DNA from: SAR324 cluster bacterium
Lineage (GTDB): Bacteria > SAR324 > XYD2-FULL-50-16 > JAERRU01
Reading direction: 5' to 3'
Assembly: GCA_016735295.1 (NCBI GenBank)
Contig: JAERRU010000015.1
Coordinates: 1-64,000, forward strand
Length of the DNA stretch: 64,000 bases
The notes under the pieces were generated by a model that was not told the DNA's origin, did no database searches, and saw only the letters and a list, made by a program, of their open reading frames with translations. A program made the translations under genes and the position numbers. Shown piece after piece: positions 1 to 62,335 of the stretch. Each line of letters starts with the position of its first letter. Positions within the stretch are counted from its first letter, which is position 1.

Positions 1-158
1 ATTTACCGTAATTAAGGATGATACCTAACCCCACCTTGCGTTAAACGATTACCATCTTACCCAAATTGCTATTTGGATTGTGTTACGCACCGCTTGCCAT
101 TTACCGTAATTAAGGATAATACCTAACCCCATCTTATGTGAGGCTATTATCATCTTAT
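1..158. repeat. Two-copy 98-bp tandem repeat at the 3' side of the M23 peptidase gene
   Basis: The opening motif atttaccgtaattaagga occurs at position 1 and again at 99, giving a 98-bp period. The first 33 or so bases of the two copies are nearly identical. After that they drift, but still share blocks such as atcttacc/atcttatc. The second copy runs into the final codons of the minus-strand M23 peptidase gene, whose stop codon is at 159-161. The left edge of the window cuts the array, so more copies may lie upstream. No coding potential was seen. Confidence 0.75.
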
Positions 159-1118
159 CTAAAATTCCACGCTAAATTGATCAGTTACCACCGGTAATCC
201 TTCCAAAATATAGTTAGCAGGGTTAACCGGTTTGCCCTTCAACCATACCTCATAATGCAAATGATACCCGGTGCTTCGCTTGCCTGAATTACCCATTCTC
301 GCCACTATAGTGCCGCGCTTAACTTTTTTGCCTACCGCCACATCTTCGGATTTAGCCAAATGGGCATATAACGTTTTTATGTAATTACCATGATTAATCA
401 ACACCACATTACCAAAACTAACACTTTTATAAACCCTTTCCACCACTCCATCGGCAGTGGCGTAAACTGGGGTATATGGTAAAAATGCCCAGTCCACTCC
501 ATAATGCATGCGCTGCACTCCTAAAAATGGGTCACCTCGTAAACCATAACCAGAGGTTAAATATCCCGCTCTTACCGGCTTTATTAACGGAGTACTTGAT
601 AATTTATCCTTGTAAGACAATAAATATGCTTGAAGCTCGCTAAATGATTTTTTTATATTGGATAAATTAGTTATATTTTTTAAACTTACCTCAGTAATCA
701 ATGAAATAATTTTATTATCTTTAAAAAAGCTTTTATCGGATAAATTAACCCTATCTAAATTACTTGGTTGGCTAACATCAATCCCTTTTTCAAAATAACT
801 AACCGCATCACCACTAGAGCCTAAAGTTAATCTTAACTTATCATTAAACTTCACTAATTCTGCCAATTGGATAGATTCTTTATTTCGTTTAATCAAAATA
901 TTTTGTAATTTGATTTCTTGAAATTCATAATCTGTCATCATGCTTTGAAAGCTATTAACATTTTTCCAATAGACCACATACTGAAAAATCACATAACAAG
1001 TTAGTAAAAAAAATAAAAAGCTAGCCCACCGAAATACATCAATAAATACCGATGGAAATGCTATCTTTATTACCCTAGATAACTCTCTAGGCATTAACAC
1101 AAGGGTGCTTTTACGCAT
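159..1118 (-). CDS. M23 (LytM-type) zinc metallopeptidase, membrane-anchored
   Basis: Probable peptidoglycan endopeptidase or LytM-domain regulator acting in the periplasm. Residues about 31-50 form one transmembrane segment. Residues 50-180 are mostly helical, a typical coiled-coil spacer. The M23 domain covers about 185-305. The zinc ligands expected for the family are visible: H205 and D209 in HYGVD, and H288 in HLH, with H253 in YAHL as the conserved extra histidine. The architecture resembles MepM/EnvC-like proteins, and the length (319 aa) is normal. It is last in a minus-strand run after the HD-GYP gene, 55 bp away. Its 3' end borders a tandem repeat. Whether it cleaves D,D-crosslinks or only activates an amidase cannot be told from sequence, but the complete metal site favours an active enzyme. 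Confidence 0.9.
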   Translation of the reverse strand: MRKSTLVLMPRELSRVIKIAFPSVFIDVFRWASFLFFLLTCYVIFQYVVYWKNVNSFQSMMTDYEFQEIKLQNILIKRNKESIQLAELVKFNDKLRLTLGSSGDAVSYFEKGIDVSQPSNLDRVNLSDKSFFKDNKIISLITEVSLKNITNLSNIKKSFSELQAYLLSYKDKLSSTPLIKPVRAGYLTSGYGLRGDPFLGVQRMHYGVDWAFLPYTPVYATADGVVERVYKSVSFGNVVLINHGNYIKTLYAHLAKSEDVAVGKKVKRGTIVARMGNSGKRSTGYHLHYEVWLKGKPVNPANYILEGLPVVTDQFSVEF

Positions 1119-1173
1119 ATTTATTTATAATATTATTTAATTCAATCATCATTACACATCACAAGGATTAGAC

Positions 1174-2604
1174 TTACATATCCAATTTCATAAAAAATTG
1201 TAATGCGTCATTACCTTTAAAAAAAGTACGGTGATCAACCGCCGCTTCTATGTTTACATCTTTAAATTCCTTATTTGTTAAATCCATAATATCTGGTTTA
1301 CCAATTCTTTTACCATCTTTATCAAAACATATCATTAAAGTAGGCCTTAATGAATATTGATCATTAGATATCACAAATCCATACTGATTGTTGGATAAAT
1401 GCAAAAAAGAACCCACCGGATAAATACCAAATGCCTTAATAAAAACGTCCACCAGCCAGCTATCAAATTGCTTTGGAGCCCAAGATCTAATTTTTTTAAG
1501 TGCCAAAAATGGCGTGTCTGGGTCACGGTAAGGGCGGTTAGTTACCAATGCCTGATAAACATCAACTATCATTAGCAATCTAACAATCTCGGCTGTATTT
1601 TGATAGTCCACACTGTGCGGATAGCCAGTATCATCTTTTCTAGAATGATGAGAAAATCCCATTTCTATCTGCAAACCTTTCATATTAAGGCCTCGCATAA
1701 TTTCTGCAGAGTAAACGGGGTGCAATTTCATCATTTCCCATTCTTCCTCATTTAATCTGCCTGGCTTGTTCAACACTTTGAGGGGAATTTTGGATTTCCC
1801 TATATCATGAAATAACGCCCCTACCGTAATTTCTTGCAAGGCCTGTTCATCATAACTGCCCATATACTTAAGTACATATAACAATTGATTAGAAACATCA
1901 ACACAGTGGCGAAAAGTATAATCATCATGATCTTTTAAAATCATCAGCACGCTAGATGCTTGATTATTTCGCGGCATATTGTAACACATTTTAGAGGCTA
2001 AATTTTCAATATTTTTTGTTTTAATGGGCTGCCTATTCCCATAACCGAAAAAATTACCTAATAGCTCTGCACCATCTTCTTGAATTTTTTCTGACGCTGG
2101 AATATCATCTTGTAGTTGATGAAATTCTGTTAACACAGCAGTCACATGTTTATTGACTCTGCTTTTAGCAGGAGATCTTATCACTGAAGTAGGGTCTAGG
2201 CTGTAAAAATCCTCTATAGACAAGTTAGGATTTAGTATTTTCAAATTGTCCAGTTCCTCTTCATTCATATATTGAACAAAGATATTATCGATTTCCATGC
2301 TTTTTAAAAGCTCGATATGCTCGGGTGATTTAATTCTAAAATGATTTTTCATCCGCCCAAGTTTAATAATTTTATCAGTAGGCCTAATATTCTCATAAGA
2401 TACTAGCCTATCTTTACCTTCACGTGTAACGGTGATGTGGCCAAATTGATATTTTTCTAAAAATTTTTGGGTGATATTGCTAGTAGAGCGAGTTGCACAA
2501 AATCTAGGAGGTGTGCCGTCTAATCCGACTACTATCATCCCTAATTTTAGTTCACTAGCTAATATCACATCATATACATTCTTTTGTTCAGCTTCCGTTC
2601 CCAT
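1174..2604 (-). CDS. HD-GYP domain protein, probable cyclic-di-GMP phosphodiesterase
   Basis: Cytoplasmic signalling protein that in its family hydrolyses cyclic-di-GMP. With the start used here (476 aa) the N-terminal part, about residues 10-60, looks like a DUF3391-type domain. The HD-GYP domain covers about 220-390: H233, the metal-binding HDIGK at 266-270, paired histidines at 319-320 and GYP at 327-329. The stretch before GYP reads HHSRKDDTGYP, whereas the usual form is HHE-x2-DG-x-GYP, so the Glu is replaced and activity is not certain. The ATG at 2602-2604 was chosen because AGGAAGAG lies just upstream. A longer in-frame start at 2652 would overlap the end of hemB by 26 bp. The gene starts 22 bp after hemB and is probably cotranscribed with it. 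The PilZ protein at 42.6 kb is a possible receptor for the same messenger. Confidence 0.85.
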   Translation of the reverse strand: MGTEAEQKNVYDVILASELKLGMIVVGLDGTPPRFCATRSTSNITQKFLEKYQFGHITVTREGKDRLVSYENIRPTDKIIKLGRMKNHFRIKSPEHIELLKSMEIDNIFVQYMNEEELDNLKILNPNLSIEDFYSLDPTSVIRSPAKSRVNKHVTAVLTEFHQLQDDIPASEKIQEDGAELLGNFFGYGNRQPIKTKNIENLASKMCYNMPRNNQASSVLMILKDHDDYTFRHCVDVSNQLLYVLKYMGSYDEQALQEITVGALFHDIGKSKIPLKVLNKPGRLNEEEWEMMKLHPVYSAEIMRGLNMKGLQIEMGFSHHSRKDDTGYPHSVDYQNTAEIVRLLMIVDVYQALVTNRPYRDPDTPFLALKKIRSWAPKQFDSWLVDVFIKAFGIYPVGSFLHLSNNQYGFVISNDQYSLRPTLMICFDKDGKRIGKPDIMDLTNKEFKDVNIEAAVDHRTFFKGNDALQFFMKLDM

Positions 2605-2626
2605 TTTTCTCTTCCTAAGTTTAAAA

Positions 2627-3616: not shown

Positions 3617-3923
3617 TTTTTTATCCAAATTAAATATTAATTTTATACTCACAAAATAACTATAACAATCATTATAGAAACTATGAAAGGAAATTATTAT
3701 TATTTAACCAAAAAGCAGCCTTCCTAAATTACTTATTTGAGAAATAAATATATTTGCTATGATAGACCTAGTTGATGTGTATTTGATATATTTGGACTTA
3801 TTGGACTTAGGTTAGCTCATTATATCCAGCCGATGAAAAATCAGCTAGACCAACTACTAATATTTTAGGTATAATCATTATTAAAAATAATGTCAACATA
3901 ATTTTATTGTTATTGCCATAATT
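3617..3923. other. AT-rich intergenic region between metF and hemB
   Basis: About 300 bp lie between the end of metF and the start of hemB, both on the minus strand. No open reading frame, tRNA or convincing hairpin was found. The stretch should hold the hemB promoter, but the AT-richness prevents picking -35/-10 boxes with confidence. Confidence 0.5.
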
Positions 3924-4766: not shown

Positions 4767-4802
4767 TATATGGCTAATAATATCACCAAATTTACCACTA
4801 TT

Positions 4803-14715: not shown

Positions 14716-15246
14716 ATGATAAGCGAGGAATCTAGGGTTTATACTAAGCAGGTTATGGGTAAAATTTTAGCCCCTTTGGAATTTTGTAAATTGGGAAAAA
14801 AGCTTGCTTTACAAGGCTCTAAGCTAGTTTTTACTAATGGTTGTTTTGATATATTGCACGCGGGGCATGCCCAGTATTTATCACAAGCTAGGTATTTAGG
14901 GGATTATTTATTTTTGGCAATCAACAGCGATGAATCGGTAAGGGGGCTCAAAGGAGATAAAAGACCGATTAACAAACTTGATGATCGGATGTTGATATTG
15001 GCATATCTATCTTTTGTGGATTATATCACTTATTTTAATGAAGACACCCCGATTAAGTTGATTAGTGATTTGCTACCTAGCGTGCTAGTTAAAGGAGGAG
15101 ATTGGCTTATTCATGATATTGTGGGCCATGACGTGGTTAAAAATAATGGTGGGCAGGTCTTTTCGTTACCTTTTATGGAAGGAAAAAGCACATCTAATGT
15201 AATTGATAATATATTGATTCGTCATGGGAAAGGAGAAAAAAGTTGA
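14716..15246 (+). CDS. hldE: D-glycero-beta-D-manno-heptose 1-phosphate adenylyltransferase
   Basis: Activates heptose 1-phosphate with ATP to give ADP-heptose for the LPS inner core. The cytidylyltransferase-type motif TNGCFDILHAGH is at residues 40-51, with the HxGH nucleotide site at 48-51. The downstream NSDESVRGLKGDKRPIN matches the RfaE domain II family. Only the adenylyltransferase half is present (176 aa), so the kinase half must be encoded elsewhere, as in organisms with split HldA/HldC. Residues 1-13 may be an extension, with a second possible start at M14. It overlaps the next gene by 23 bp. Confidence 0.92.
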   Translation: MISEESRVYTKQVMGKILAPLEFCKLGKKLALQGSKLVFTNGCFDILHAGHAQYLSQARYLGDYLFLAINSDESVRGLKGDKRPINKLDDRMLILAYLSFVDYITYFNEDTPIKLISDLLPSVLVKGGDWLIHDIVGHDVVKNNGGQVFSLPFMEGKSTSNVIDNILIRHGKGEKS

Positions 15247-15442
15247 TTGTTTCAAGTGTCAACATTTTATCATCACGTGGGATAAGAAGGCTCCTTATGG
15301 TTGTCGAATATTTAACTTTAAAACAAGCAAGCTACCTTCAATCATAGTTAAGAAAAATTCTAATCAGGATTGTCAATTTTTCAAAGTTAAGCAAAAAAAG
15401 CTGGGGGGTGGTGATAAAATAAAAGGTGATTCTGATAATTAA
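15224..15442 (+). CDS. Small Cys-rich, probably metal-binding protein
   Basis: A 72-residue protein beginning inside the end of hldE (23-bp overlap, other frame) behind the purine-rich run CATGGGAAAGGAG. It has CFKCQHF near the N-terminus, YGCRIF in the middle and DCQFFK near residue 50, four cysteines in all. This C-x2-C...YGC...C pattern recurs in short proteins of Beta- and Deltaproteobacteria, sometimes mislabelled as uracil-DNA glycosylase. A zinc-binding fold is inferred. The C-terminal 20 residues are Lys/Gly/Asp-rich. Its tight coupling to hldE suggests cotranslation. Function unknown. Confidence 0.65.
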   Translation: MGKEKKVDCFKCQHFIITWDKKAPYGCRIFNFKTSKLPSIIVKKNSNQDCQFFKVKQKKLGGGDKIKGDSDN

Positions 15443-15455: not shown

Positions 15456-16346
15456 TTTTAGAAAATATAAATTTAGATGACCCAGCTTGAACATACCAAA
15501 ATTACCAAGCACCGGATATTATGTAAAGCGTTATGTCTGTGTGAAAAATATAAATTTAGATGCCCCAGCTTGAATATACCAAAATTATCAAGCACCGGAT
15601 ATTATGTGAGCCGTTATGGTCTGTGTGAAAAAATTTGAATTTAGATGACCCAGCTTGAATATACCCAAATTACCAAGCACCGGATATTATGTGCGCCGTT
15701 ATGTCTGTGTATAAAATTTGAATTTAGATGACCCAGCTTGAACATACCAAAATTATCAAGCACCGGATATTATGTGAACCGTTATGGTCTGTGTATAAAA
15801 TTTGAATTTAGATGACCCAGCTTGAATATACCAAAATTACCAAATGCCAGATATTATGTGAGGCGTTATGTCTGTGTATAAAATTTGAATTTAGATGACC
15901 CAGCTTGAATATACCAAAATTATCAAGCACCGGATATTATGTGAGGCGTTATGTCTGTGTATAAAATTTGAATTTAGATGACCCAGCTTGAATATACCAA
16001 AATTACCAAATGCCGGATATTATGTGAGGCGTTATGTCTGTGTGAAAAATATAAATTTAGATGACCCAGCCTGAATATACCAAAATTACCAAGCACCGGA
16101 TATTATGTGAGCCGTTATGTCTGTGTGAAAAATATAAATTTAGATGACCCAGCCTGAATATACCAAAATTACCAAGCACCGGATATTATGTGAGGCGTTA
16201 TGTCTGTGTGAAAAATATAAATTTAGATGACCCAGCTTGAATATACCAAAATTACCAAGCACCGGATATTATGTAAAGCGTTATGTCTATGTATAAAATA
16301 TAAATTTAGATGACCCAGCTTGAACATACCAAAATTACCAAATACC
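15456..16346. repeat. Eleven-copy 83-bp tandem repeat array
   Basis: The core gatgacccagcttgaa recurs at 15476, 15559 (variant gatgccc), 15644, 15727, 15811, 15894, 15977, 16060, 16143, 16226 and 16309, with spacings of 83-85 bp. Each unit continues with taccaaaattacc, an accggatattatgtg block and ttatgtctgtgt. Two linker subtypes exist: gaaaaatataaattt at both ends and tataaaatttgaattt in the middle units. The last, partial unit runs into the final codons of the minus-strand SNase-like gene, including its stop (16335-16337). Because 83 is not a multiple of three no long frame is maintained. It is a minisatellite in about 890 bp that otherwise contains no gene. Confidence 0.95.
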
Positions 16347-16982
16347 TGATTTATTTTTTCTAGCGATATCTTCAGCTTTAATAAATTCAGGAATAATATC
16401 TCTTTGTTTTTTGGGGAGAATATAGGGGGATAACCCATTTTTGATTATCCAATAATTCAAAGATTTACTCAAATCTTTCACATCGGCGTTTGGTAAAAAT
16501 AATACTCCGCTTAGTACTCGCCCAGCAGCTTTCATTTCAAAGATAAGGGATAATTCTTTATTTTTAGTTATTTTATTGATGATATGGGCGATTTTAGCAT
16601 TTTTTTGTTTATTTAATTTTTTCGATTTGGTGGCCAAAGGATTAAAAGATATTCCTTCTAGGGAGATGGCTATCCAAGAATTTTTTTCATTTTTAAAATT
16701 AATATCAACATCTTGGCTTAACAGAGTATAAACGTTTCTATCTTCTATCAGCATCCAAATAAGATTACCGGAAAGTTTAATAATTTGGGCATCAATTAAC
16801 TGTTTTTTCCCCGGAAAAGGCCTAACTAGCCCTTTAACGCTTTTGGCATTACGATTAACTTTTGTGTAGCGATAAACTTGAATTTTTTCATCATAATATC
16901 CGCCATATTCATCAAGTTTTTCATCTTCACAGCTAGGCAGTATTAACGCTGAGGCCAAGAGCATAAAGGCAAGTAATTTCAT
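16335..16982 (-). CDS. Lipoprotein with degenerate staphylococcal-nuclease-like fold
   Basis: The signal peptide ends in the lipobox LPSC with Cys18, giving an exported lipoprotein of 215 aa. The region about 50-215 looks like the SNase/thermonuclease beta-barrel. The C-terminal block PEFIKAEDIARKNKSGIW is the characteristic end of that family (E-x2-AR-x-x-K-x-G-I/L-W). The catalytic Arg-Glu-Arg set of active nucleases is not obvious, so a binding rather than cleaving role is possible. The last three codons and stop lie in the 83-bp tandem array, so the C-terminus may have been reshaped by repeat expansion. It is monocistronic as far as can be seen. Confidence 0.65.
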   Translation of the reverse strand: MKLLAFMLLASALILPSCEDEKLDEYGGYYDEKIQVYRYTKVNRNAKSVKGLVRPFPGKKQLIDAQIIKLSGNLIWMLIEDRNVYTLLSQDVDINFKNEKNSWIAISLEGISFNPLATKSKKLNKQKNAKIAHIINKITKNKELSLIFEMKAAGRVLSGVLFLPNADVKDLSKSLNYWIIKNGLSPYILPKKQRDIIPEFIKAEDIARKNKSGIW

Positions 16983-21608: not shown

Positions 21609-22913
21609 ATGCATCACATTGCCACTGCGCTTAATAAACAGCTAGAAGTTGACTATCCTCACATTTGGCGAGTTTTAAGCGATTTAGGAAAAAGAATTTA
21701 TTTCCCTAAAGGAATATTAGCTCAATCGCAAGAAGCTGCTTTGAAAGCTACATTATTTAACGCCACTATTGGTATATCCACTGAACATAAAAAGCCAATG
21801 CATCTACCGCAGGTGCAAGGCATGTTTAATGATTTACCACCTAGCAATATCTATGGCTACGCCCCTGCTGGTGGAAGAAAGAATTTACGTAACCTCTGGT
21901 GGGAAAAAATTAAAAAAACTAGCCCCATGCTTTCTGATGTTCATTGTAGCTTGCCTATTGCTACTTCTGGCATCACCCATGCAATTGCTTTAGCTGCCCA
22001 GATGTTTGTTAAACCTGGTGATAAGGTGGTTATTCCTGAGCAAAATTGGGAAAATTATCACCTCATTTTTGAAGTTGAAAGAGAGGCTACTATTGCTAGC
22101 TATCCTTTATTTAACAAGCGAAATCGATTTAATGTGGAGGGCTTGAAAAGAACCCTATTAGAAGTATTGAAAACTCAAGATCAGGCAGTAGTAGTGCTTA
22201 ATTTCCCTAATAACCCTACTGGATACTCTTTAACTGATAAAGAACAAGATGAAATTGTTCATTTATTAACATCAATCGCTAGTCCTGGTAAATTTTTGAT
22301 GGTTTTGTGCGATGATGCCTATTTTGGTCTATTTTTCGAAAACGATTTAGCTAAACAAAGTTTATTTGCTAAATTAGCCAATGTAAATCAGCATCTATTG
22401 GCGATTAAACTTGATGGGCCAACAAAAGAATTTTTCATGTGGGGCTTTAGATTAGGATTCATCACCTTTGGTTATAATAACGCTCAAAAAGGCCTTTATG
22501 ATATACTTGAACAAAAAATAACTGGTTTAATTAGAGCAAAACTTTCTAATTGTTCGCACCCGGCACAATCTATTTTAGAAAAAATATTAACTGACAGTCT
22601 TCACCAAGAAGAGGCTCATAGGTTATTTTTACTTTTACAAGAGAGGGCGTTAAAGGTAAAAAAATTATTATCGACTGGGCGTTATGCGAAGTATTTTGAT
22701 TTTTATCCTTTCAATGCGGGTTACTTTATGTGTATCATCTTAAAGGATATTCCCGCAGAAAAACTTAGATTAAAATTACTTGATGATTATCAAATAGGCA
22801 CTATTTCATTTGGTAAATATGATCTAAGAATTGCTTTTAGCTCGTTAGATCTAGATGATATAGATGAGCTATTTGAAAAGATTAATTTAGCTTGCGAAGA
22901 GTTGCATTCTTGA
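21609..22913 (+). CDS. PLP-dependent aminotransferase, class I/II
   Basis: Fold-type I aminotransferase of 434 aa. The nucleotide-like PLP pocket is supported by ATSGITHAIALA, the conserved NFPNNPTG (substrate carboxylate/PLP phosphate region), CDDAYFGLFF with the PLP-binding Asp and Tyr, and the Schiff-base lysine in LDGPTKEFFMWGFRLGF. The Arg for the substrate carboxylate is in YDLRIAFSS near the C-terminus. The substrate cannot be assigned. The HASP-type short N-terminal region and the context give no pathway. Its last 54 bp are part of a 208-bp duplication spanning the convergent junction with the next gene. Confidence 0.85.
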   Translation: MHHIATALNKQLEVDYPHIWRVLSDLGKRIYFPKGILAQSQEAALKATLFNATIGISTEHKKPMHLPQVQGMFNDLPPSNIYGYAPAGGRKNLRNLWWEKIKKTSPMLSDVHCSLPIATSGITHAIALAAQMFVKPGDKVVIPEQNWENYHLIFEVEREATIASYPLFNKRNRFNVEGLKRTLLEVLKTQDQAVVVLNFPNNPTGYSLTDKEQDEIVHLLTSIASPGKFLMVLCDDAYFGLFFENDLAKQSLFAKLANVNQHLLAIKLDGPTKEFFMWGFRLGFITFGYNNAQKGLYDILEQKITGLIRAKLSNCSHPAQSILEKILTDSLHQEEAHRLFLLLQERALKVKKLLSTGRYAKYFDFYPFNAGYFMCIILKDIPAEKLRLKLLDDYQIGTISFGKYDLRIAFSSLDLDDIDELFEKINLACEELHS

Positions 22914-23232
22914 TGAGTTTGGTGATTAGTTTGTTTTTATTATTGGGGTTTGTGTAATAAAATAATTCCCAATTGGGCTGGTCATACTTGCTTATCATAT
23001 CCTTACCCAAATATGCTTACCCAAATATCCTTACCCGAATATCATTACCAAGATTTTTTGTGGTGCTATAGATGAGCTATTGGAAAAGATTAATTTAGCT
23101 TGCGAAGAGTTGCATTCTTAATTAGTTTGGCGATTAGTTTGTTTTTATTGTTGGGATTTGTATAATAAAATAATTCCCAATTGGGCTGGTCGTACTTGCT
23201 TATCATATCCTTACCCAAATATCCTTGCCAAA
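22860..23232. repeat. Two-copy 208-bp duplication across a convergent gene junction
   Basis: The sequence starting atagatgagctatt is at 22860 and again at 23068. The copies stay close to identical through taatttagcttgcgaag, the aaataattcccaattgggc block and the cttatcatatccttaccc block. Copy 1 carries the true 3' end of the aminotransferase (stop at 22911-22913). Copy 2 carries the true 3' end of the minus-strand gene (stop at 23090-23092). Each copy therefore contains a spare end of the other gene. Inside copy 1, cttacccaaatat is itself repeated three times. Confidence 0.93.
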
Positions 23233-25042
23233 ATATAATAATTGTTGTTCCAAATTCTTTCAGAATTGGCTGAGCCATTTTTGCCGATTCTAAATTAAGT
23301 TGGCAAATCACCAGATCGGGCTTTATGCCTGCTAACTTGGTTTTGATATTTTGCCAATCTTTGCTAATATTTTTATAATTATATAGATATTGCGAGGAAC
23401 TCACATTAGTTGAATGTTCTTCATGTTTGTTATTTTTCGGATTAGATATTTCGCTAAAGTTGGTGAAAAACTCTGTTTCATATCCTATCTGAAAAATATT
23501 GCCTGAAAATGCTTTTTTAATGGATTTATCTTTATCACTAGCTAACTTTTTATTGATTTTACCAATAAAACTAACCGATTCTTGATCAATGCACTGGGCA
23601 GTAATATTTTTCAAAATTGGCTCCCAAAGATCTATCATCACACGTTGCAGAGCAAATTTTTCCAATTGTAAATATTCGCTACCGGTTATTTCGGTAATGT
23701 TAGCTAAACTACCTTCAGTCACCCCTTTATTTTCGGCATTTAACAGCCAACGGCTAATGCGCTTGGCACAACTTTTACTGGTAATTATAACAGCTTTTTT
23801 ACCAAATTTATGATATTTAGAAAAATCTAGCTTAGCTAAATCATCGATAGTTTTAATACGGTTTAAATCGAGCCATAGCACTCTAGAATTTTTCTTTATA
23901 CCTTGATAAATTTCACTTAGCATATCCTCATCATAAGATAATAATAATATTTGTTGTGAGGAATTTTCATCACCATCTAAGCTAGTAAATTCGGTGGCTT
24001 TTGCTAGGCTATCTCGCAAATTTTTCAGATTTAATTGCCTTTCTGCTATTACATATTTTTCTTGTAACGCTAATTTTTTAATTTTTTGCTTATTTTGTAA
24101 TTCCAACAAATTATTATTAAAAGCAGTCACTAATTCAGCCGGCTCCATGGCACGAAATTTAACTAACATTTTCGCTAAGGATTGATAGTTTTTTTTCTCG
24201 TCTGGCTGCTCATCTTGATTAAAAAGTTGATCGCCCAATTTTATCACGCTATCAAATAAATGATGATAATCCTGATAAGTTTGCTGATTAATAAAATAAG
24301 ATTTAATCGTTCTAATCAGCAAAGGCTGCACCAATGGTTTTGCTAAAATATAAGGCTCAAGCTTAGCTGGTAATGTAGATTTATGCCAATGTTCATTAAG
24401 TAACCCATCGAGCCAGTTAGATGTGGTGACAATTTTCAAGGATGGGGTTAGCCTTTTCACGCGATTTTCAGCCAATTTTTCCTTTTGTTGCTGACAAAAT
24501 ATTTGTCGTTTTTGAGCAAATAAATCTTCAGTTAACTGCTGCCAAGCCTGGGGATTATTTTTAAATTTCCCATCAAACAAGATATGCTCTATTTGACCTT
24601 CTTTAAATTTTAAATTTATCAAATTATCAAAAGAGTGCGATAGCTTATAATCCTGCTTTAAGCTTGCCTTTTCTAAAGATTTAGTTAGTTCGCCCAAATC
24701 AGCTGGTAGCTGCTTTACTTGAGTATTTTTTTCTGATGTAGGATGCAATCTAGCTAACAGGTGCAATATATTAAAATTTTGTTCCCAGCAGATTATGCTA
24801 ATTTGTGGTAGATTACTTAAGTTCAACAAGGCTTTAAATTTCTTTAAGCCTAACTCTGAAAAGCAAGCTAATATCCAACAATGTTTATCGCCTAAATTTC
24901 GACAATAAAAGTCGGGCATTTGCCAGAATCTATCACCTGGTTTTAAAATTTCTATTTTAGATTCTAAAAGCTTGGCCTCATATTTAAATACAGCAGTTAG
25001 ATCATCTATCGTAGAGCTGTTGCTCAAAAGGATTAGTCTCAC
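23090..25042 (-). CDS. Large uncharacterised protein
   Basis: A 650-residue protein that I do not recognise. It has no signal peptide and no clear transmembrane segment. It alternates hydrophobic strands (RLILLSNSS at the start, CWILACFSELG, VLWLDLNRI, AVIITSKSCAK, LVICQLNLE, TTIIIFWQG) with long charged helices between about 160 and 370 (Gln/Lys/Leu-rich). The strand pattern suggests two Rossmann-like alpha/beta parts flanking a helical middle. The start is GTG (25040-25042). It converges with the aminotransferase, and its last eight codons are the antisense of that gene's terminal codons, inherited from the 208-bp duplication. Function unknown. Confidence 0.75.
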   Translation of the reverse strand: MRLILLSNSSTIDDLTAVFKYEAKLLESKIEILKPGDRFWQMPDFYCRNLGDKHCWILACFSELGLKKFKALLNLSNLPQISIICWEQNFNILHLLARLHPTSEKNTQVKQLPADLGELTKSLEKASLKQDYKLSHSFDNLINLKFKEGQIEHILFDGKFKNNPQAWQQLTEDLFAQKRQIFCQQQKEKLAENRVKRLTPSLKIVTTSNWLDGLLNEHWHKSTLPAKLEPYILAKPLVQPLLIRTIKSYFINQQTYQDYHHLFDSVIKLGDQLFNQDEQPDEKKNYQSLAKMLVKFRAMEPAELVTAFNNNLLELQNKQKIKKLALQEKYVIAERQLNLKNLRDSLAKATEFTSLDGDENSSQQILLLSYDEDMLSEIYQGIKKNSRVLWLDLNRIKTIDDLAKLDFSKYHKFGKKAVIITSKSCAKRISRWLLNAENKGVTEGSLANITEITGSEYLQLEKFALQRVMIDLWEPILKNITAQCIDQESVSFIGKINKKLASDKDKSIKKAFSGNIFQIGYETEFFTNFSEISNPKNNKHEEHSTNVSSSQYLYNYKNISKDWQNIKTKLAGIKPDLVICQLNLESAKMAQPILKEFGTTIIIFWQGYLGKDMISKYDQPNWELFYYTNPNNKNKLIAKLIKNATLRKLN

Positions 25043-36548: not shown

Positions 36549-36673
36549 CGTTTAAATTATGTTTAGTAGATTTTTTTGTTGAAAAATTTTATCTGATATG
36601 CTAATAGCTATGCTGCTTAGTGTATTATACCATTTTATATTGTATATAAATTTTGCTTAAGAATAGGTTGAAT

Positions 36674-37615
36674 ATGAATATTGCTATTATTTTACCCGCT
36701 TTCAATGAAGAACATACTATCGCCAAAGTTATTACCAGCTTTCATAAAGAGCTCCCAAAAGCTAAAATTGTGGTAGTTAATAATGCTTCTACCGATAACA
36801 CCTTTAACGAAGCGACCAAAACTTTTGCCAAGCTTGATATTGGGGGCACTATCATCAATGAGGCCAGGCAAGGCAAGGGATTTGCCGTGCGAGCTGCCTT
36901 TACACAAATAGATGCTGATTATTATGTGCTTTGCGATGCTGATGACACTTACCCAGCTAACTCGGTTAAAGATTTATTAAACTTAGCCTATGAAGGAGCT
37001 GATTTAGTGGTGGGCAACCGCCTTAGCTCTGGATCATATAAAAAGCAAAATAACCGCCGCTACCACACTTTTGGTAATAGATTGATTAATTTTATCGTTA
37101 ATTGTCTTTTTTCAAATATTGATAAAATTAAAGATGTGATGAGTGGATACCGAGTTTTTAGCCGTAAATTTGTTAAAAATTATCCTATTTTGGTGCCCGG
37201 ATTTCAATTAGAAACTGATATGACCTTGCACGCCCTTGATAAAAGGTTTGTCGTGCGAGAAATGGAGGTTACTTACCAAAATCGTCCTAAAGAAAGCTTT
37301 TCAAAGCTTAATACTATATCTGACGGGCTTAAAGTACTTTTTTGTATTGCCAGGGTATTTCGCTATTACCGACCCTTATTCTTTTTTAGTATACTATCTC
37401 TCATATTTTTAATAACTGGTTTTTTATCGGCTATCCCAGTTTTACGAGATTGGATATTATATAGTTATATATATCACGTCCCTTTAGCTATTTTAGCTAG
37501 TTCTTTGGAATTGGTGGCTATACTAACTTTATTAGCAGGATTTATTTTGGATTCTTTGAGCCATCAAAATAAATTTATGTATGAGCATACTTTGCTTAAC
37601 CTCAAAAAAGATTAA
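36674..37615 (+). CDS. Glycosyltransferase family 2, polyprenyl-phosphate sugar synthase type
   Basis: GT-A glycosyltransferase of 313 aa resembling dolichyl/undecaprenyl-phosphate mannose or glucose synthases. It starts IILPAFNEEHTI. The nucleotide-sugar site is VNNASTDNT, and CDADDTYP supplies the acidic metal ligands. Two or three C-terminal hydrophobic helices (about 235-300) anchor it in the inner membrane. The ATG at 36674 begins directly at the family N-terminus. The upstream TTG at 36653 is less likely. With the next gene, a GT39-type membrane transferase, it would form a two-step system: sugar to lipid carrier, then to an acceptor. Its 3' end is copied twice more downstream. Confidence 0.85.
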   Translation: MNIAIILPAFNEEHTIAKVITSFHKELPKAKIVVVNNASTDNTFNEATKTFAKLDIGGTIINEARQGKGFAVRAAFTQIDADYYVLCDADDTYPANSVKDLLNLAYEGADLVVGNRLSSGSYKKQNNRRYHTFGNRLINFIVNCLFSNIDKIKDVMSGYRVFSRKFVKNYPILVPGFQLETDMTLHALDKRFVVREMEVTYQNRPKESFSKLNTISDGLKVLFCIARVFRYYRPLFFFSILSLIFLITGFLSAIPVLRDWILYSYIYHVPLAILASSLELVAILTLLAGFILDSLSHQNKFMYEHTLLNLKKD

Positions 37616-37802
37616 TATTTTTAATAATTATCCATAAGTTAAAATAGATTCATGTGCGAGCATGCTTTGCTTAATCGCAAAAAAGATTAATATGTTTAAT
37701 AATCTATCCATACGTTAAAATAGATTCATGTGCGAGCATACTGTGCTTAATTACAAAAAAGATTAATATGTTTAATAATTTATCTATACGTTGAAAATTT
37801 AA
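37579..37802. repeat. Three-copy 75-76-bp tandem repeat of the glycosyltransferase 3' end
   Basis: The motif gagcat with cttaa and caaaaaagattaatat occurs at 37583, 37658 and 37734. The first copy includes the last eleven codons and stop of the glycosyltransferase gene (stop 37613-37615). Copies two and three lie in the 197-bp spacer before the next gene and keep a recognisable degraded version of the coding end. Confidence 0.92.
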
Positions 37803-37812: not shown

Positions 37813-39363
37813 ATGCTAATGCTAAAAAATCATATAAATACTATTAAAACTATTAAAAATCCGTTTGCCACCAAATTTGAAATTTTGGCCCTACTCTTTT
37901 TAATATTTCATTTTGCACTGTGGACGTCTCTATCTACTTTATTTGATATCCACAGCGATATGGCTGATCATTTTATGAGCAGTCGATATTGGTCGTTATC
38001 CTATTATGAACATCCTCCTATGGTCGCTTGGAGCATGGCTTGGATTAACCTATTTCCCAATAGTTATCACATACCCTTATTAAAAATTGGCTCAGTAATT
38101 TTTAATTGCTTACTTTTATGGCAAGTATTTAGGATATCAATGTTGATAATGCCTAAACGCTATAGCCTTTACTCAATGCTGATTTTAGCGAGCACTGCAT
38201 ATCTTTCGTTAGGGTCGTTATTTTGGAGTATTGATCATCCTTATCTGCTTTTTTGGTTGTTGGCGACTAGATTTACTTTATTATATATTAACACCAAAAA
38301 CAGTAATTATCTTTTGCTGATGGGGGCTAGTTTGGGATTTGGAGCTCTATCTAAATACATCACAGTTTTATTTTATCTATCCCTATTCATCTGGGGCATA
38401 ATAACGCATAAGAGGTACAAATTACTTAAAAATTATTACTTTTACGCAGCAGGAATAATCTCATTTATCATTTTCCTTCCTGTCCTCTATTGGAATTATC
38501 AAAATGATTTTATGTCCTTTTGGTTCCACCTACAAAGAGTATTAACAGGAGTAAGTGGAATATCTAACCTGCTCATCTTTACGCTAGGGCATATACTTTT
38601 ATTTTCACCATTATTTGTATTTTTGGGTTGGATTAAATATGGCAAAGCTTTATTTGGCACTAGCCTCAACTCAGCTGATCAATTTTTAGGATTAAGTGCT
38701 GTAGTAGTGCTGGTATTCTTTTCTCTAGCTTCATTAACTGGCTCTATAGTGGAGCCTAAATATCTGAATGTTAGTTATTTATTTTTATATATTTTGTTAG
38801 CTAAACTTTTAACTAACAAGTTTTTAATTAAATATCGATATTATTTAAGATCCTCAATAGTTGTTACTTATCTAGCTAATATTGGTTTGGCTGTGTTTGT
38901 TTATGGGCAAGCTACTGGCTCTCACTTACCTTTACCAAGTGCGTTGCAAACAAAAATGGAAGGATTGTTATTTTGGAAAGATACTTCAGCTGGTATTAAT
39001 AATCTTTTGGAAATGAAAGATATCACGCCCCCGCCATTTGTAATATCACGTGACTATCAGTTATCGGGAATATTATCTTTGTATTTGAAGAATAAACCAT
39101 TTTCTCATACCATCGAAAAAGAAAAACGTAATTTATGGAGTAAGCCCCAAGATATTTCTGAAAAAGGTGCCCTGGTGGTTTGCTTGCAAGATGAGTGTAA
39201 TAAAACAATCAAAGATGTTCAAAAAAGACTTCCCAGCAATAGTATCAATAAATTGGGAATGGTTAAAGTAACCTTTCCTTCAAAGCACAATCGAGAATTA
39301 ATTATCTATTACCTAATGCCCCTAAATTTACCATGTGTGGGTTGTGAACTAAGCAAAAATTAG
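37813..39363 (+). CDS. GT39/ArnT-like polyprenyl-phosphate-sugar glycosyltransferase
   Basis: Integral membrane transferase of 516 aa with about ten predicted helices. The N-terminal loop contains FDIHSDMADHFMSSRYWSLSYYEHPP, with acidic residues followed by the YYEHPPM motif, which is typical of the PMT/ArnT (GT39/GT83) superfamily that uses lipid-phosphate sugars. A short periplasmic domain follows at about 390-516. It lies 197 bp after the lipid-phosphate-sugar synthase and probably uses its product to modify lipid A, another glycan or protein. The acceptor cannot be named. Confidence 0.82.
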   Translation: MLMLKNHINTIKTIKNPFATKFEILALLFLIFHFALWTSLSTLFDIHSDMADHFMSSRYWSLSYYEHPPMVAWSMAWINLFPNSYHIPLLKIGSVIFNCLLLWQVFRISMLIMPKRYSLYSMLILASTAYLSLGSLFWSIDHPYLLFWLLATRFTLLYINTKNSNYLLLMGASLGFGALSKYITVLFYLSLFIWGIITHKRYKLLKNYYFYAAGIISFIIFLPVLYWNYQNDFMSFWFHLQRVLTGVSGISNLLIFTLGHILLFSPLFVFLGWIKYGKALFGTSLNSADQFLGLSAVVVLVFFSLASLTGSIVEPKYLNVSYLFLYILLAKLLTNKFLIKYRYYLRSSIVVTYLANIGLAVFVYGQATGSHLPLPSALQTKMEGLLFWKDTSAGINNLLEMKDITPPPFVISRDYQLSGILSLYLKNKPFSHTIEKEKRNLWSKPQDISEKGALVVCLQDECNKTIKDVQKRLPSNSINKLGMVKVTFPSKHNRELIIYYLMPLNLPCVGCELSKN

Positions 39364-46686: not shown

Positions 46687-48264
46687 GTGAAACAAGCATA
46701 TAAAATAAAGCGTGCCTTGGTTAGTGTAACAGATAAAACCAATTTAGCTGAATTTGCTAAAGGATTAAGTGAGCTAGGTTGCCAACTCATAGCTACTGAC
46801 GGCACTAATGCCCATCTTAAAAAATATGACATTAAAACTATTGATTTAGCCGATTTTAGTGATAGCCCAGCCTTATTTTCAGGACGCATAAAAAGTCTTA
46901 CCTTTAAAGTACAAAGTGCCATACTTTATGACCGCTTTAATCCCCAACATCAACAAGAAGCGAAAGAACATCAAATATCTACTATTGATTGCGTGATTTG
47001 CAATTTTTATGATTTTCAAAAGGCTCTTAATCAGCAAAAACAAGCTAATGCAGATGATAATTTAGCTTCCATTATTGAACACATAGATATAGGTGGTCCT
47101 AATATGGTTAGGGCTGCGGCGAAGAATTTTAAATCGGTTTTAGTTATTACTGATCCTGATGATTATCAAATAATACTAAAAGAGCTAACCGAAAATGAGG
47201 GAGCGATTAGCTATAATACTCGTTTATTGATGATGAAAAAGGCTTTTAGATTGATTTATCAATATGATCAATTAATCTTTGAGGGTTTAACTAGAAAAGA
47301 GATTAAATATGGAGAAAATTCCCATCAACAGGCTTATTACGTGCCTTTTGCTGATGATTATTTGGAAAATTTGAGCCAAAATCAAATATCATATAATAAT
47401 TATCTAGACGTAAATGCAGCCCTTGAATTGCTATATGACATTGATTTATCGCTAGGCAAAGGTGGGCTAGGTAATGCAGATAAAATGATCATCAATCAAT
47501 GTGCGGTGGTGATAAAGCATAATAACCCTTGTGGGTTAGCTAGTGCTAAAGATTTGGCTCAAGCCTTGAAATTAGCCTTGGATGGGGATAAAATGTCTGC
47601 TTTTGGCTCAGTGGTAGGAGTATCAGGAGTGGTTGATATGGAGATAGTAAACTCTTTAAAAGGCATTTTTATTGAGGTAATAGTAGCGTTTGATTATGAG
47701 AAAGAAGCTTTAACAATGTTAAAAAAACTAAAACGAAAATTAAAAATAATTAAAGTTACTCCTCCATCAAAAAGCTCAAATAATCCTTGGCAAAGAAGAT
47801 CTATTGAAAATGCTACCCTCCTACAATCAAAAGATGTAGGCACATATAAAGATTATCAGGCGGTCACTAAGAAAAAATTTACCAACGACTTATTAGGTTT
47901 AGCAAAATTTGCCATGCTCGCCGTTAAATCCTTAAAATCAAACGCAGTAGCTATTGCCCGCTATCATCAAGGGGCTTATCAATTAATTTCTACTGGCTCT
48001 GGGCAAACTAATCGCTTAGATGCAGTTAGGCTTTTGGCTATTCCTCGGGCTTTGGATAACTTTAAACAACTTGATTGGGATAAATGTGTTTTGGCGAGTG
48101 ACGCTTTTTTTCCTTTTGCCGATTCAATTGAGAGCTTAGCTCAACATAAATTAAAGCATATAGTTCAACCAGGGGGGAGCATTAGGGATAAAGAGGTGAT
48201 TAACGCTTGCGATGAGCATGATATAGCGATGATTTTAACTAATCGTCGCCATTTTAAGCACTAG
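46687..48264 (+). CDS. purH: Bifunctional AICAR formyltransferase / IMP cyclohydrolase
   Basis: Performs the last two steps of IMP synthesis. The cyclohydrolase half is at the N-terminus (IKRALVSVTDKT, DGTNAHLKKYDI). The transformylase half contains KHNNPCGLA (catalytic Lys-His region) and the typical FPFADSIE and QPGGSIRDKEVI near the end. Start is GTG 46687, giving the standard N-terminus. No ribosome site is visible. Length 525 aa matches the family. It lies downstream of alr on the same strand behind the ATA repeat. Confidence 0.96.
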   Translation: MKQAYKIKRALVSVTDKTNLAEFAKGLSELGCQLIATDGTNAHLKKYDIKTIDLADFSDSPALFSGRIKSLTFKVQSAILYDRFNPQHQQEAKEHQISTIDCVICNFYDFQKALNQQKQANADDNLASIIEHIDIGGPNMVRAAAKNFKSVLVITDPDDYQIILKELTENEGAISYNTRLLMMKKAFRLIYQYDQLIFEGLTRKEIKYGENSHQQAYYVPFADDYLENLSQNQISYNNYLDVNAALELLYDIDLSLGKGGLGNADKMIINQCAVVIKHNNPCGLASAKDLAQALKLALDGDKMSAFGSVVGVSGVVDMEIVNSLKGIFIEVIVAFDYEKEALTMLKKLKRKLKIIKVTPPSKSSNNPWQRRSIENATLLQSKDVGTYKDYQAVTKKKFTNDLLGLAKFAMLAVKSLKSNAVAIARYHQGAYQLISTGSGQTNRLDAVRLLAIPRALDNFKQLDWDKCVLASDAFFPFADSIESLAQHKLKHIVQPGGSIRDKEVINACDEHDIAMILTNRRHFKH

Positions 48265-48535
48265 TGGATACTTGATATTAACGTCAACCTTCACAATTTA
48301 TATTTTATATGTTGGCTTAGTTATTTGGTTTTCACTTGCTTTGGTGGGCAAGATGTTTTATAGCTAAGTAGCTGTGTTTCTGCTCGCGCAAACCAAGCAC
48401 CCTATTAGATTTATGGCGGGCGTGGCTACTTGATATTAACGTCAACCTTCACAATTTATATTTTATATGTTGGCTTAGTTATTTGGTTTTCACTTGCTTT
48501 GGTGGGTAAGATGTTTCATGACTAGGCGGTTGTGT
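48265..48535. repeat. Two-copy 158-bp direct duplication after purH
   Basis: cttgatattaacgtcaacc begins at 48271 and again at 48429. The copies are identical or nearly so for about 105 bp and then diverge. The first copy starts within 7 bp of the purH stop. They fill most of the 500-bp gap between purH and the HU/IHF gene. No ORF was found. Confidence 0.93.
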
Positions 48536-48728
48536 TGATATTCATATAAACCAGTTACTATATTAGTTTTATAGTAAATATTAATTTTATCTATCATAAA
48601 ATTTATGAATTTGCTTCCCAAAATATAGTATATTTAGTAACTTAAGACTCAATGCGCCACTTTTATCTGTTAAATAATATGAACAAATATCATATAAGTA
48701 TCGTTAATTTTTATTATCGCACTTTGTT

Positions 48729-56736: not shown

Positions 56737-56783
56737 TTAGCTGGCTAGATGGGTAGCTGACTAATAATAGTTTAGCCAGCTAA
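56737..56783. terminator. Putative bidirectional terminator between phaB and the ubiA-like gene
   Basis: A perfect 11-bp inverted repeat, ttagctggcta (56737-56747) and tagccagctaa (56773-56783), has a 25-bp loop and sits between two convergent stops. An alternative inner pairing of tagctg with cagcta is also possible. A/T-rich flanks follow on both sides. Confidence 0.55.
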
Positions 56784-56797
56784 AAATATTGTTGGTT

Positions 56798-57820: not shown

Positions 57821-58013
57821 TGCACAACTAATAAAAATTAATATTTACTTCGTACCAAAAAAAATAACCATAACTAAATAATTAACACATTGCAATAGAA
57901 TATCTAAAGCTCATTATTAATGAAGATAGCATCTATTATATAACCAGTTTTTTGTTTCGCTAAACCCTTTTTGAATTATAAAAATAATCTCTATCTCCAG
58001 ATTGAGCGTGCAT

Positions 58014-58565: not shown

Positions 58566-58613
58566 TATATTACTTAATTACTTATAATTATAACTATCAC
58601 TATTGCCTATCAC

Positions 58614-59987
58614 TTAATCTTTAAAATTAGGTGGTATGATATCATATTTTTTTATTATTATATGCAAATAACTACGCACAACACCAATCTTTTTAGCCGT
58701 TTCTGAAATATTCCAATCGTATTTTTTCAAATTAGCAATAAAATAATCTCTTTCAAATAAAGCTTTCGCTTCTTTGAAATTGACGTGCTGTTTGGTTGTA
58801 TTAACCAATTTAGTTGCCCCATTTTTTTGCAGTTCTTCCCCTAAATGAGAAGGCAAAATTTCATTTTCTTCAACCAAAATAAGCAATCGCTCCACAGTAT
58901 TTTTTAATTCCCTCACATTACCAGGCCAATCATATGCCTGCAAAAGCTTAATCGCTGATTGGCTTATTTTTTTCGCCGGTAAAGACTGCTTCACAAATTC
59001 TTTGATAAAATAATCCACCAACAAAGCAATATCATCTTTTCTATTACGCAAAGGAGGCAGCTTAATAGGAATTATCGCCAATCGGTAATAAAGATCTTCG
59101 CGGAACAATCCTTGGGTAATCAAATCTTGTAAATCCTTGTTAGTCGCCGATATAACCCTAACATCAACTCTTATATGCTCTTTTCCTCCCACCGGTTGAA
59201 TTTTCTGATCATCTAACGCCCTTAATACTTTAGATTGTGCATTTAGGCTCATATCCCCGATTTCATCAAGAAATAAAGTCCCTTGATTAGCCTGTTCAAA
59301 TTTGCCAATAGTCTTTTCAAATGCTCCCGTAAAAGAACCTTTCTCGTGCCCAAAAAGCTCACTTTCAATTAATGTATCAGGAATAGCGGCGCAATTAACT
59401 GCGATAAATGGCTTCTCAGCTCGGGCGCTATTTAGGTGTATTTGCCTTGCTATTAGCTCTTTGCCCGTGCCATTTTCACCTAAAATTATCACTCGGCTAT
59501 TGGTTTTGGCAATAGTATTTATATTTTTAATAATATCTTTAGTCGCTTTACTTTTACCTATTATTAAATATTTATCTTTAATCAGGTAATTTTTTAAATT
59601 CTTATTTTCCTTCTTTAATTGATACGACTGGCAGGTATGATTAAGTAAATGATAAATTTTATCTACGGAAAATGGTTTTTCCAAAAAATCATAAGCCCCT
59701 ATTTTCAGAGCCTGAACTGCCAATTCAATATTACCGTGACCTGATATCATTATTACTGGTATATGAGGATAGTCTTTTTTTATAATTTGCAAAACTTCTA
59801 TCCCACTCATCGAATCCATCCAAATATCCAATAAAATAGTTTGGATGCACTTATCTTGTTTCAGCAGTGCCAACCCCGCTTTACCAGAATCAGCTAAAAG
59901 TGCTGTTAACCCTTTATCGGCCAGTAAATCTTGAAGAGTTTTTCGTATTTTTGAATCGTCATCTATAATAAGTATCTTATTTGTCAT
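58614..59987 (-). CDS. ntrX: NtrX/NtrC-family sigma-54-dependent response regulator
   Basis: 457 aa. Receiver domain: phosphoacceptor D54 in ILLDIWMDS, acidic pair at D10-D11, K104 in EKPF. AAA+ domain: Walker A GENGTGKE at 170-177, sigma-54-contacting GSFTGAF (GAFTGA variant) at 217-223, Walker B TLFLDEIG at 237-244. Fis-type helix-turn-helix at the end (NISETAKKIGVVRSYLH). VIMISGHGNIE and the output helix match NtrX more than NtrC. The cognate kinase (ntrY) is not adjacent. Confidence 0.88.
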   Translation of the reverse strand: MTNKILIIDDDSKIRKTLQDLLADKGLTALLADSGKAGLALLKQDKCIQTILLDIWMDSMSGIEVLQIIKKDYPHIPVIMISGHGNIELAVQALKIGAYDFLEKPFSVDKIYHLLNHTCQSYQLKKENKNLKNYLIKDKYLIIGKSKATKDIIKNINTIAKTNSRVIILGENGTGKELIARQIHLNSARAEKPFIAVNCAAIPDTLIESELFGHEKGSFTGAFEKTIGKFEQANQGTLFLDEIGDMSLNAQSKVLRALDDQKIQPVGGKEHIRVDVRVISATNKDLQDLITQGLFREDLYYRLAIIPIKLPPLRNRKDDIALLVDYFIKEFVKQSLPAKKISQSAIKLLQAYDWPGNVRELKNTVERLLILVEENEILPSHLGEELQKNGATKLVNTTKQHVNFKEAKALFERDYFIANLKKYDWNISETAKKIGVVRSYLHIIIKKYDIIPPNFKD

Positions 59988-60167
59988 AAATCCTACCTTA
60001 TTGATATTACAGACTTTTAAAGCTAAATTTAATAAAATCTAACCTATTATTTTATTTTTATATAAAAATTACTTGCAAATCACACACAAAGAGCAGTAAA
60101 CTAGTTCCATATATCTAATAATTATTTATAAAAGCAATTAAATAATCAAACATCAACCAGATAAATC

Positions 60168-61052
60168 ATGAAATTTGTTGATCACGATAGCTTTAAGTTG
60201 GCTGATTATTGCATCAGTGCTGATGAATATCTACTCAAAATGAAAGAACATCCTAAGCCAATAGTACTAGATATAAGAGAAAAAGAAGTCTATCTCAGCG
60301 GAACTATAGAAAATGCATATAATTTACCCTATAGTGAGTTCGCAGAAAGACTAATTCAATTACCTCCATTTGGTACTATCATAATATATTCTGATGAAAA
60401 AAATCAACAAATAGACAAAACCGTTAAATTATTATGGGAAAATGGGTTTAGCGATATCTTCTATGTCGATAAAGGATATCAATCAATTGTGGCTAGCTTA
60501 TTTGAAGTATCAGATGATGTTTTGGATAAATGCATAGGCTTTTTAAAAGAGAATAACGCTAAAGCGATAAAATTAAATGTAGCAGCCTACGAACTAGGCT
60601 ATGACTTGGTAAATGAAAATCCAGATCCTGAAGAATATAAAGAGGTAGTGATAAATAACTTAATCATTTATTTTTCTCACCGCAAGCTAAGGCTAGTAGA
60701 AGGTACAATTATAAATTGGCAAGACGGCAAGCCTAGCTTAGATCATCCTAGATTACACCAAGAAAGACCCAAAGAATCCTTAAAGGAAAGAGTGCAAAAA
60801 TTATTAGACCAACAAGTAAACCCATCAGTCGCTTCTCATGGCGGGGATGTAAAATTAATTGATGTGAAGGACGATGTAGCCTATATCGAAATGATGGGTG
60901 GGTGCAAAGGCTGTGGGCAATCGGCAGCCACTCTAAAAAATGGTATTGAAGCGGCAATTTTTCATGGTGTTCCTGAAATTTCACAAGTTTTAGATACCAC
61001 CGACCACGCCTCAGGCACTAATCCCTATTATCAAAGCGACGCCAATGCTTAG
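60168..61052 (+). CDS. Rhodanese-like / A-type-like / NifU C-terminal fusion protein
   Basis: 294 aa. Residues about 28-112 form a rhodanese fold (LDIREKEVYLSGTIENAYNLPY, VDKGYQSI), but the active-site Cys is replaced: the loop reads YSDEKN, with Ser75 at that place. Residues about 115-195 resemble the degenerate A-type/HesB part of NfuA. Residues about 205-275 are a NifU C-terminal domain, with Fe-S ligands C246 and C249 in GGCKGCGQSAATLKNGIE. It should be an iron-sulfur carrier of the NfuA type with a non-catalytic rhodanese sensor or docking module. It is close to bolA/ibaG, another Fe-S cofactor gene. Confidence 0.8.
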   Translation: MKFVDHDSFKLADYCISADEYLLKMKEHPKPIVLDIREKEVYLSGTIENAYNLPYSEFAERLIQLPPFGTIIIYSDEKNQQIDKTVKLLWENGFSDIFYVDKGYQSIVASLFEVSDDVLDKCIGFLKENNAKAIKLNVAAYELGYDLVNENPDPEEYKEVVINNLIIYFSHRKLRLVEGTIINWQDGKPSLDHPRLHQERPKESLKERVQKLLDQQVNPSVASHGGDVKLIDVKDDVAYIEMMGGCKGCGQSAATLKNGIEAAIFHGVPEISQVLDTTDHASGTNPYYQSDANA

Positions 61053-61071
61053 GACTATGATGGATGCTGTT

Positions 61072-61618
61072 GTCGCCAGATTTTATTATATGAATTAAGA
61101 GCGGCTATCACCTAATCCATCATAAAAGCAGTGGCTTATTGGTGATATGATTATCTGAACCATCATAAAATAGTTGCCATTAATGATGTAATTATCTCCA
61201 TATTTTATCGTACAAATTTAGACTCGCCATCACCTAATCCATCATAAAAAGCGGTGGCTTATTGGTGATTTGATTATCTGAACCATCATAAAACGCTTGC
61301 CATTAACGATGTAATCATCGCCATATTTTATTATATGAATTAAGACCGGCTATCACCTAATTCATCATAAAAAATGGTGGCTTATTGGTGATTTAATTAT
61401 CTGAACCATCATAAAACGCTTGCCATTAACTATGTAAATTTAGACTCGCCATCACCTAATCCATCATAAAAAATGGTGGCTTATTGGTGATATGATTATC
61501 TGAACCATCATAAAACGCTTGCCATTAACGATGTAATCATCGCCAGATTTTATTATATGAATTAAGCCCGGCTATCACTTAATTCATCATAAAAGCAGTG
61601 GCTATTGGTGATGTAATA
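61072..61618. repeat. Five-copy 122-bp hairpin-forming tandem repeat array
   Basis: The motif atcacctaat (or ttaat) with ccatcataaaa occurs at 61107, 61229, 61352, 61451 and 61574. Spacings are 122, 123, 99 (24 bp deleted) and 123. Each unit contains an inverted pair, atcacc-aat and attggtgat, around gtggctt, so a single strand would form hairpins. It fills nearly all of the 590-bp spacer between the convergent Fe-S fusion gene and bolA. Unit edges vary between tatgaattaag and caaatttagac. No ORF was found. Confidence 0.93.
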
Positions 61619-61642
61619 TTGCCTTTTTAGGAGATAGATGAC

Positions 61643-61882
61643 CTAAGGAGCCCTAGTTATAACATTCAGCGCGTGCACCCTATCTCGAAAAATATCACCG
61701 AGTGCTTGATACACCATTTTATGTTGCTCCACCAAACTTTGTGAAATAAATTCCTTGCTAATCACACAAACTGATAAATGGCTGCCATCGCCTTTTTGAT
61801 CCACCAAATCTATCTTAGCATCTGGGAATCTCTTTTTTAGCAATTCTTCAATTTTTTGAGTACTAACATCTATTATTCTCAT
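61643..61882 (-). CDS. ibaG: BolA/IbaG-family protein
   Basis: 79 aa. The BolA fold is shown by KGDGSHLSVCVISKEFISQSLVEQHKMVYQALGD and VHALNVITRAP, with the conserved His near the C-terminus that co-binds [2Fe-2S] clusters with monothiol glutaredoxins. The short size suits IbaG/YrbA rather than BolA itself (about 105 aa). Role: iron-sulfur cluster trafficking. It is followed downstream by the repeat array. Confidence 0.88.
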   Translation of the reverse strand: MRIIDVSTQKIEELLKKRFPDAKIDLVDQKGDGSHLSVCVISKEFISQSLVEQHKMVYQALGDIFRDRVHALNVITRAP

Positions 61883-61963
61883 AATATATCTCTCACAATT
61901 AACGATTAATCTTATAAAGACTTAGTAAATCCATAAAATAGATCACAAAACAAACAATGCCAA

Positions 61964-62046
61964 TGCCGAGAAGGAGGGTCGAACTCCTATGAGCAAAGCC
62001 CACACGGCCCTGAACCGTGCGCGTCTACCAATTTCGCCACCTCGGC
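61964..62046 (-). tRNA. tRNA-Leu (anticodon CAG)
   Basis: The minus strand folds to a class II tRNA. The acceptor is gccgagg with tctcggc, the anticodon stem is cacgg/ccgtg around ttcaggg (anticodon CAG, reading CUG), a long variable arm (tgggctttgctcat) follows, and the T-loop is ggttcgac-like (gttcgac). The discriminator is A. The genomic sequence after it is TTG, so the CCA tail is not encoded. Confidence 0.93.
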
Positions 62047-62080
62047 TGGCACAAATCAAAATTTTATTCCATCAGCCAAA

Positions 62081-62335
62081 AATTACCACTGCCAATCTTT
62101 TAACATCTGACAAAGCAACCTAACATCAACTCCTGTCGCTACTTTGCTTTGATTCCATCAACCAAAATTACCACTGCCAATCTTTTAACATCTGACAAAG
62201 TAACCTACCATCAACTCCTGTCGCTACTTTGCTTTGATTCCATCAACCAAAATTACCACTGCCAATCTTTTAACATCTGACAAAGCAACCTGACTCCAAC
62301 TCCTGTCGCTCCTTTACTCGGATAAAAATCAACGT
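62081..62335. repeat. Three-copy 85-bp tandem repeat of the pepA 3' end
   Basis: aattaccactgccaatcttt occurs at 62081, 62166 and 62251. The third copy is the functional 3' end of pepA (stop 62253-62255) and runs about 80 bp into its coding sequence. The other two copies are downstream spares that still encode the pepA C-terminal peptide QMLKDWQW and a stop, with a few changes (for example GVDVRLL in place of GVGVRLL). Confidence 0.95.

Follow-up and report, generated by a model that had tools for sequence, protein, structure and literature searches.

The tandem repeats described in Ehrlichia ruminantium, Wolbachia, Borgs and mycobacteria are the closest known counterparts of the arrays analysed here, which were found in a 64,000 nucleotide stretch (the window; assembly GCA_016735295.1, contig JAERRU010000015.1) of the genome of a SAR324 cluster bacterium. 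The 1.516 Mb genome of E. ruminantium (Collins et al. 2005, via PMC3287509) gives 201 Tandem Repeats Finder (TRF) rows that make up 6.3% of the genome, with a mean period of 138.7 bp and a mean internal match of 91.6%, and slippage has been proposed for them. In Wolbachia wMel, 93 tandem repeats with a mean period of 80.9 bp account for 1.6% of the genome; its intergenic variable number tandem repeats (VNTRs) include partly deleted periods, and concerted evolution has been proposed (PMC3287509). The MIRU/VNTR loci are minisatellites of the mycobacterial genome (PMC3635867). In the archaeal Borgs, repeat units within open reading frames (ORFs) are divisible by three and commonly disordered, and such repeats are virtually absent from host genomes (PMC9879509).

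The spacer arrays reported here repeat a unit head to tail, with unit lengths from tens to hundreds of bp; they are locus-private bacterial intergenic minisatellites, a known kind of repeat, although their length mode is unusual. MIRUs belong to a single family of related sequences, unlike the present units, which are unrelated among loci. The E. ruminantium genome and this one are both small and hold very many tandem repeats, but here arrays with a period of at least 30 bp cover 24.6 kb, or 1.6% of the genome rather than 6.3%, with a mode near 83 bp (PMC3287509). The tandem repeat load is comparable to those of E. ruminantium and Wolbachia wMel; however, the two described Wolbachia VNTR units bear hairpins, whereas no extra folding is seen in the present units (PMC3287509). 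As in Borgs, in-gene units are divisible by three, but Borg copies are perfect and A-biased with quoted unit lengths of 18-21 nt, while those here are diverged, close to 83 bp and unbiased (A content 0.346, vs 0.362 in other spacers) (PMC9879509).

The window corresponds to positions 1-64000 of a 67,912 bp contig (C14) in a 42-contig assembly of 1,522,328 bp that is 90% complete and in which five small contigs are all N. The whole assembly was joined up and TRF run across it. Genes were called with our own simple codon-pair model, giving 1190 genes and 87% coding DNA; some short genes are missed (for example a 72-aa ORF at 15224-15442) and some starts are possibly misplaced. The array set comprises units of 30-354 bp and excludes two tandem arrays of ~1013 bp, which are duplicated genes. 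These ~1013-1016 bp duplications (C5:126657-130464, L024:6657-10464, with 3.8 copies; C27:1-2390, with 2.3 copies) have copies that are 86-87% alike and extend to contig ends, and the two C5 copies tested match glycosyltransferase family 9 (heptosyltransferase).

TRF found 75 arrays genome-wide, with 64 in spacers and 11 within genes. The account that we consider probable is that tandem duplication occurs independently of sequence, is followed by continuing block exchange between copies, and is filtered by selection, which removes changes that harm coding regions or promoters. Whatever segment is present would gain a tandem copy, with replication slippage or template switching as the most likely route, in a process that would not recognise stop codons; the array would then expand, contract and become partly homogenised through block slippage or unequal exchange between its copies. 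Duplications that break a frame, split a protein or disturb a promoter would be purged, and the survivors would gather in spacers bordered by the 3' ends of genes. A duplication in a convergent spacer would touch no promoter, whereas one in coding or promoter DNA would usually be lost.

All-against-all comparison of the array units revealed no dispersed repeat family, and each array has its own private sequence, which supports this account. A mobile element or repeat family was rejected on the same comparison. Array-to-array matches were found where the same array is split over contig ends (C1/C32, C16/C4 and C34/C6), and comparison of arrays with whole contigs added further split arrays (C15/C33, C15/C10, C2/C28, C2/C3 and C37/C14). 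The remaining cross-matches are two short AT-rich ones and one between a neighbouring pair of protein-repeat arrays on C13.

Placement was tested with the 48 spacer arrays that lie away from contig ends, each collapsed to one unit. Twenty are in convergent, 23 in co-directional and five in divergent spacers, where spacer length predicts 7.6, 24.9 and 15.5; convergent spacers are thus enriched 2.6-fold and divergent ones depleted 3-fold. Array density decreases from convergent (20 in 26.2 kb) through co-directional (23 in 84.8 kb) to divergent spacers (five in 53.0 kb), an order which also supports duplication filtered by selection, and coding DNA holds 11 arrays in about 1.3 Mb. Across the full set, 29 of 75 arrays overlap a gene 3' end and nine a 5' end (P=0.0017). 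Relative to random placement among spacers, 3' crossings are in excess (25 vs 12.4 expected, P=0.0006) and 5' crossings are depleted, not absent (8 vs 13.7 expected). The original prediction had attributed stop-anchored arrays to one process acting at gene 3' ends, and to this extent a genome-wide process with a 3'-side bias is upheld. The excess is gone, however, once the spacer is fixed and only the position within it is shuffled (25 3' crossings vs 28.9 expected; 8 5' crossings vs 11.7 expected), and the 23 co-directional arrays show no preference for the stop, 14 being nearer to it and nine nearer the start (P=0.40). The bias therefore sits in which spacer bears an array; it is a choice of spacer and not a hold on the stop codon, again supporting the proposed account, and the one-process interpretation is only partly supported, as a process aimed at stops finds no support. 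The further claim that gene starts are unaffected fails, as eight arrays cross starts genome-wide, in genes that look accA-, queA-, parA-, pstS- and rluC-like, judged by eye from their N-terminal sequences.

The seven loci first noticed in the window are as follows (periods, copy numbers and boundaries of the last six from TRF).

1-158: truncated 97/98-bp array at the contig start, adjoining a minus-strand M23 peptidase-like gene whose stop is at 159.
15462-16341: 83-bp array, 10.6 copies, in a convergent spacer; it reaches 7 bp into the 3' end of a minus-strand gene (16335-16982).
22859-23236: 208-bp array, 1.8 copies; the unit holds the last 55 bp of an aminotransferase-like gene (21609-22913).
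37566-37798: 76-bp array, 3.1 copies; the unit holds the last 50 bp of a glycosyltransferase gene (36653-37615).
48264-48572: 158-bp array, 2.0 copies, in a co-directional spacer, beginning at the stop of purH (46687-48264).
61073-61536: 123-bp array, 3.0 copies by TRF (about 3-4 copies), in a convergent spacer, 20 bp past the stop of an NfuA-like gene (60168-61052).
62062-62315: 85-bp array, 3.0 copies; the unit holds the last 63 bp of a leucyl aminopeptidase gene (62253-63776, minus strand).

Six of these are strong arrays by TRF, with copies 84-93% alike and units that are mutually unrelated, as predicted. The locus at 1-158 is real but truncated; its unit is 95% identical to that of a 4-copy 97/98-bp array ending contig C37 (7156-7549), and it is the cut end of an array that carries on in that contig. 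The observation that arrays begin in or near a stop codon, with the last codons of the gene in the unit, was partly confirmed. Stops lie inside four units, with 50-63 bp of coding sequence in three (stops at 22913, 37615 and 62253) and 7 bp in one (16335), while the other three (48264, 61052 and 159) merely adjoin or closely precede the array. On the proposed account, last codons are often within a unit because a unit that spans the stop leaves the protein intact. Two of the window arrays also end close to a gene start, that at 37566-37798 stopping 14 bp short of the ATG of an ORF at 37813 and that at 62062-62315 being separated by 15 bp from a tRNA-Leu gene (61964-62046, minus strand) on that gene's 5' side. 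The 15462-16341 array begins 19 bp past the stop of the 72-aa ORF (plus strand), which was read from the sequence and has no Pfam match. The second copy of the 22859-23236 array encodes the C-terminus of a converging 650-aa ORF (23090-25042, minus strand) that has no Pfam or NCBIfam match.

Relationships between copies fit block slippage or unequal exchange following a first duplication. The best-matching copies of the 10.6-copy array are often non-adjacent (copies 5 and 7, 96%; copies 4 and 6, 96%; copies 2 and 8), and in the 61073 array copy 3 differs from copies 2 and 4, which match each other at 97%. This higher-order or block structure is what unequal exchange or slippage would leave, and supports the proposed account, as does the finding that at least five longer periods (169-268 bp) are multiples of 85-90 bp. 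Genes for RecA, MutS, RecJ and ExoVII are present, with the RecJ score just under the curated cut-off, and this too supports it. Loss of these repair genes was accordingly rejected as a cause. SbcC and SbcD were not detected in this genome, which is 90% complete, nor was there a match above cut-off in three relatives; therefore these genes do not separate the lineages.

Several observations weigh against duplication filtered by selection as the whole explanation. In an ungapped self-comparison carried out independently on 898 spacers, self-repeats occurred in 33 of 124 convergent, 34 of 628 co-directional and eight of 146 divergent spacers, so that divergent and co-directional spacers are alike and convergent ones alone stand out, a pattern that a convergent hotspot fits equally. 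Short-period arrays (10-29 bp) have no convergent excess (18/100, vs 20/48 for the long ones; P=0.004), a contrast for which lower tolerance of larger insertions near promoters may account. Selection alone does not predict a unit-length mode as sharp as that near 83 bp. In-gene arrays do not share this mode; all 11 have a period divisible by three (25 of 64 in spacers) and encode protein repeats or low-complexity segments, which supports the filter, but they may mostly be ordinary protein repeats, possibly of other origin, and are therefore given little weight. At C13:45929-46926 (L068), short ORFs at a contig end presumably encode Sel1-like 36-residue repeats (108-bp period), a name given by sequence pattern only.

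The alternative that survives best, although we think it unlikely, is a topological hotspot, in which converging transcription traps positive supercoils, stalls forks and raises the rate of ~83-bp duplication, besides any effect of selection. GapR-seq in E. coli places positive supercoils at 3' ends, especially between convergent genes (PMC8360656), as this explanation requires, and in the self-comparison the odds of self-repeats are 6.3 times higher in convergent than in all other spacers (33/124 vs 42/774, P=1e-11). Conflict between replication and transcription, or between converging transcripts, may be a cause. Within spacers, however, arrays are not in excess at the stop codon, and relaxed constraint would be expected to give the same gradient.

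More doubtful is a length-measuring duplication process that makes units near 83 bp and favours sites of converging transcription. In the size distribution, 35 of 64 spacer arrays have a period of 72-91 bp (nine exactly 83 bp), seven have one of 39-45 bp and none falls at 46-71 bp, totals that count twice a few arrays split over two contigs. Offsets in the self-comparison agree, with 80-84 bp in 20 of 75 and 75-89 bp in 35 of 75. Length quantisation in ~42-bp steps was considered and rejected, as periods of 147-151 and 97-108 bp do not fit (judged by eye). The narrow unit length is explained by none of the accounts considered.

The arrays are very unlikely to be functional elements maintained by selection, for instance tandem small RNAs or terminators. 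Their location downstream of genes and the persistence of several copies are compatible with this, and near 61 kb there are three terminator-like sites vs 1.0 expected, two of them inside the 61073-61536 array; against it, the arrays share no conserved sequence and no Rfam family was matched in the window, so that a known RNA was rejected as their identity. Folding of the units equals that of ordinary spacer segments: a stem-loop in each unit was not found, with 14% of units having z below -2 vs 4-22% of control spacer segments. Slippage driven by hairpins or near terminators, one of the mechanisms first suggested, was rejected for the same reason.

A dedicated amplification system recognising gene 3' ends or terminators, which had also been suggested, is highly improbable and is not supported by the placement test with the spacer fixed. 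The overall imbalance between 3' and 5' ends and the narrow unit length would suit it, but the units are unrelated and do not fold unusually, starts are struck too, and no candidate enzyme turned up, though no systematic search was made for one. Assembly artefacts, with repeats collapsed or invented, can practically be dismissed: 12 of 74 contig ends fall inside arrays and several contig ends share one array, but copies differ by 1-15%, which is not something an assembler invents, and the breaks, which would fit long or variable arrays, suggest that the real arrays are probably longer than assembled.

The nearest genomes compared share only the order with this bacterium, whose genome has roughly half the length of the smallest among these relatives and is more AT-rich than those sampled. 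A TRF scan of 673 kb from four relatives found two comparably strong arrays vs 33 expected at the density seen here, which is ~17-fold higher. One of the two (L121:14486-14841, contig C2 of one relative), located near a contig end and downstream of an apparent ORF end, has an 87-bp unit in 4.1 copies, the only unit near 83 bp in the 673 kb. From this single case, the unit size may extend beyond this species.

For genome analysis, these results show that spacer geometry alone can mimic a stop codon anchor. If duplication did measure length, the spacers of this lineage would record how large a product one specific event, of replication stalling or template switching, leaves behind. With about 60 independent private duplications, a narrow size mode and a convergent bias that can be measured, this genome provides a natural setting in which to ask whether converging transcription seeds small tandem duplications or such duplications only survive where it occurs.
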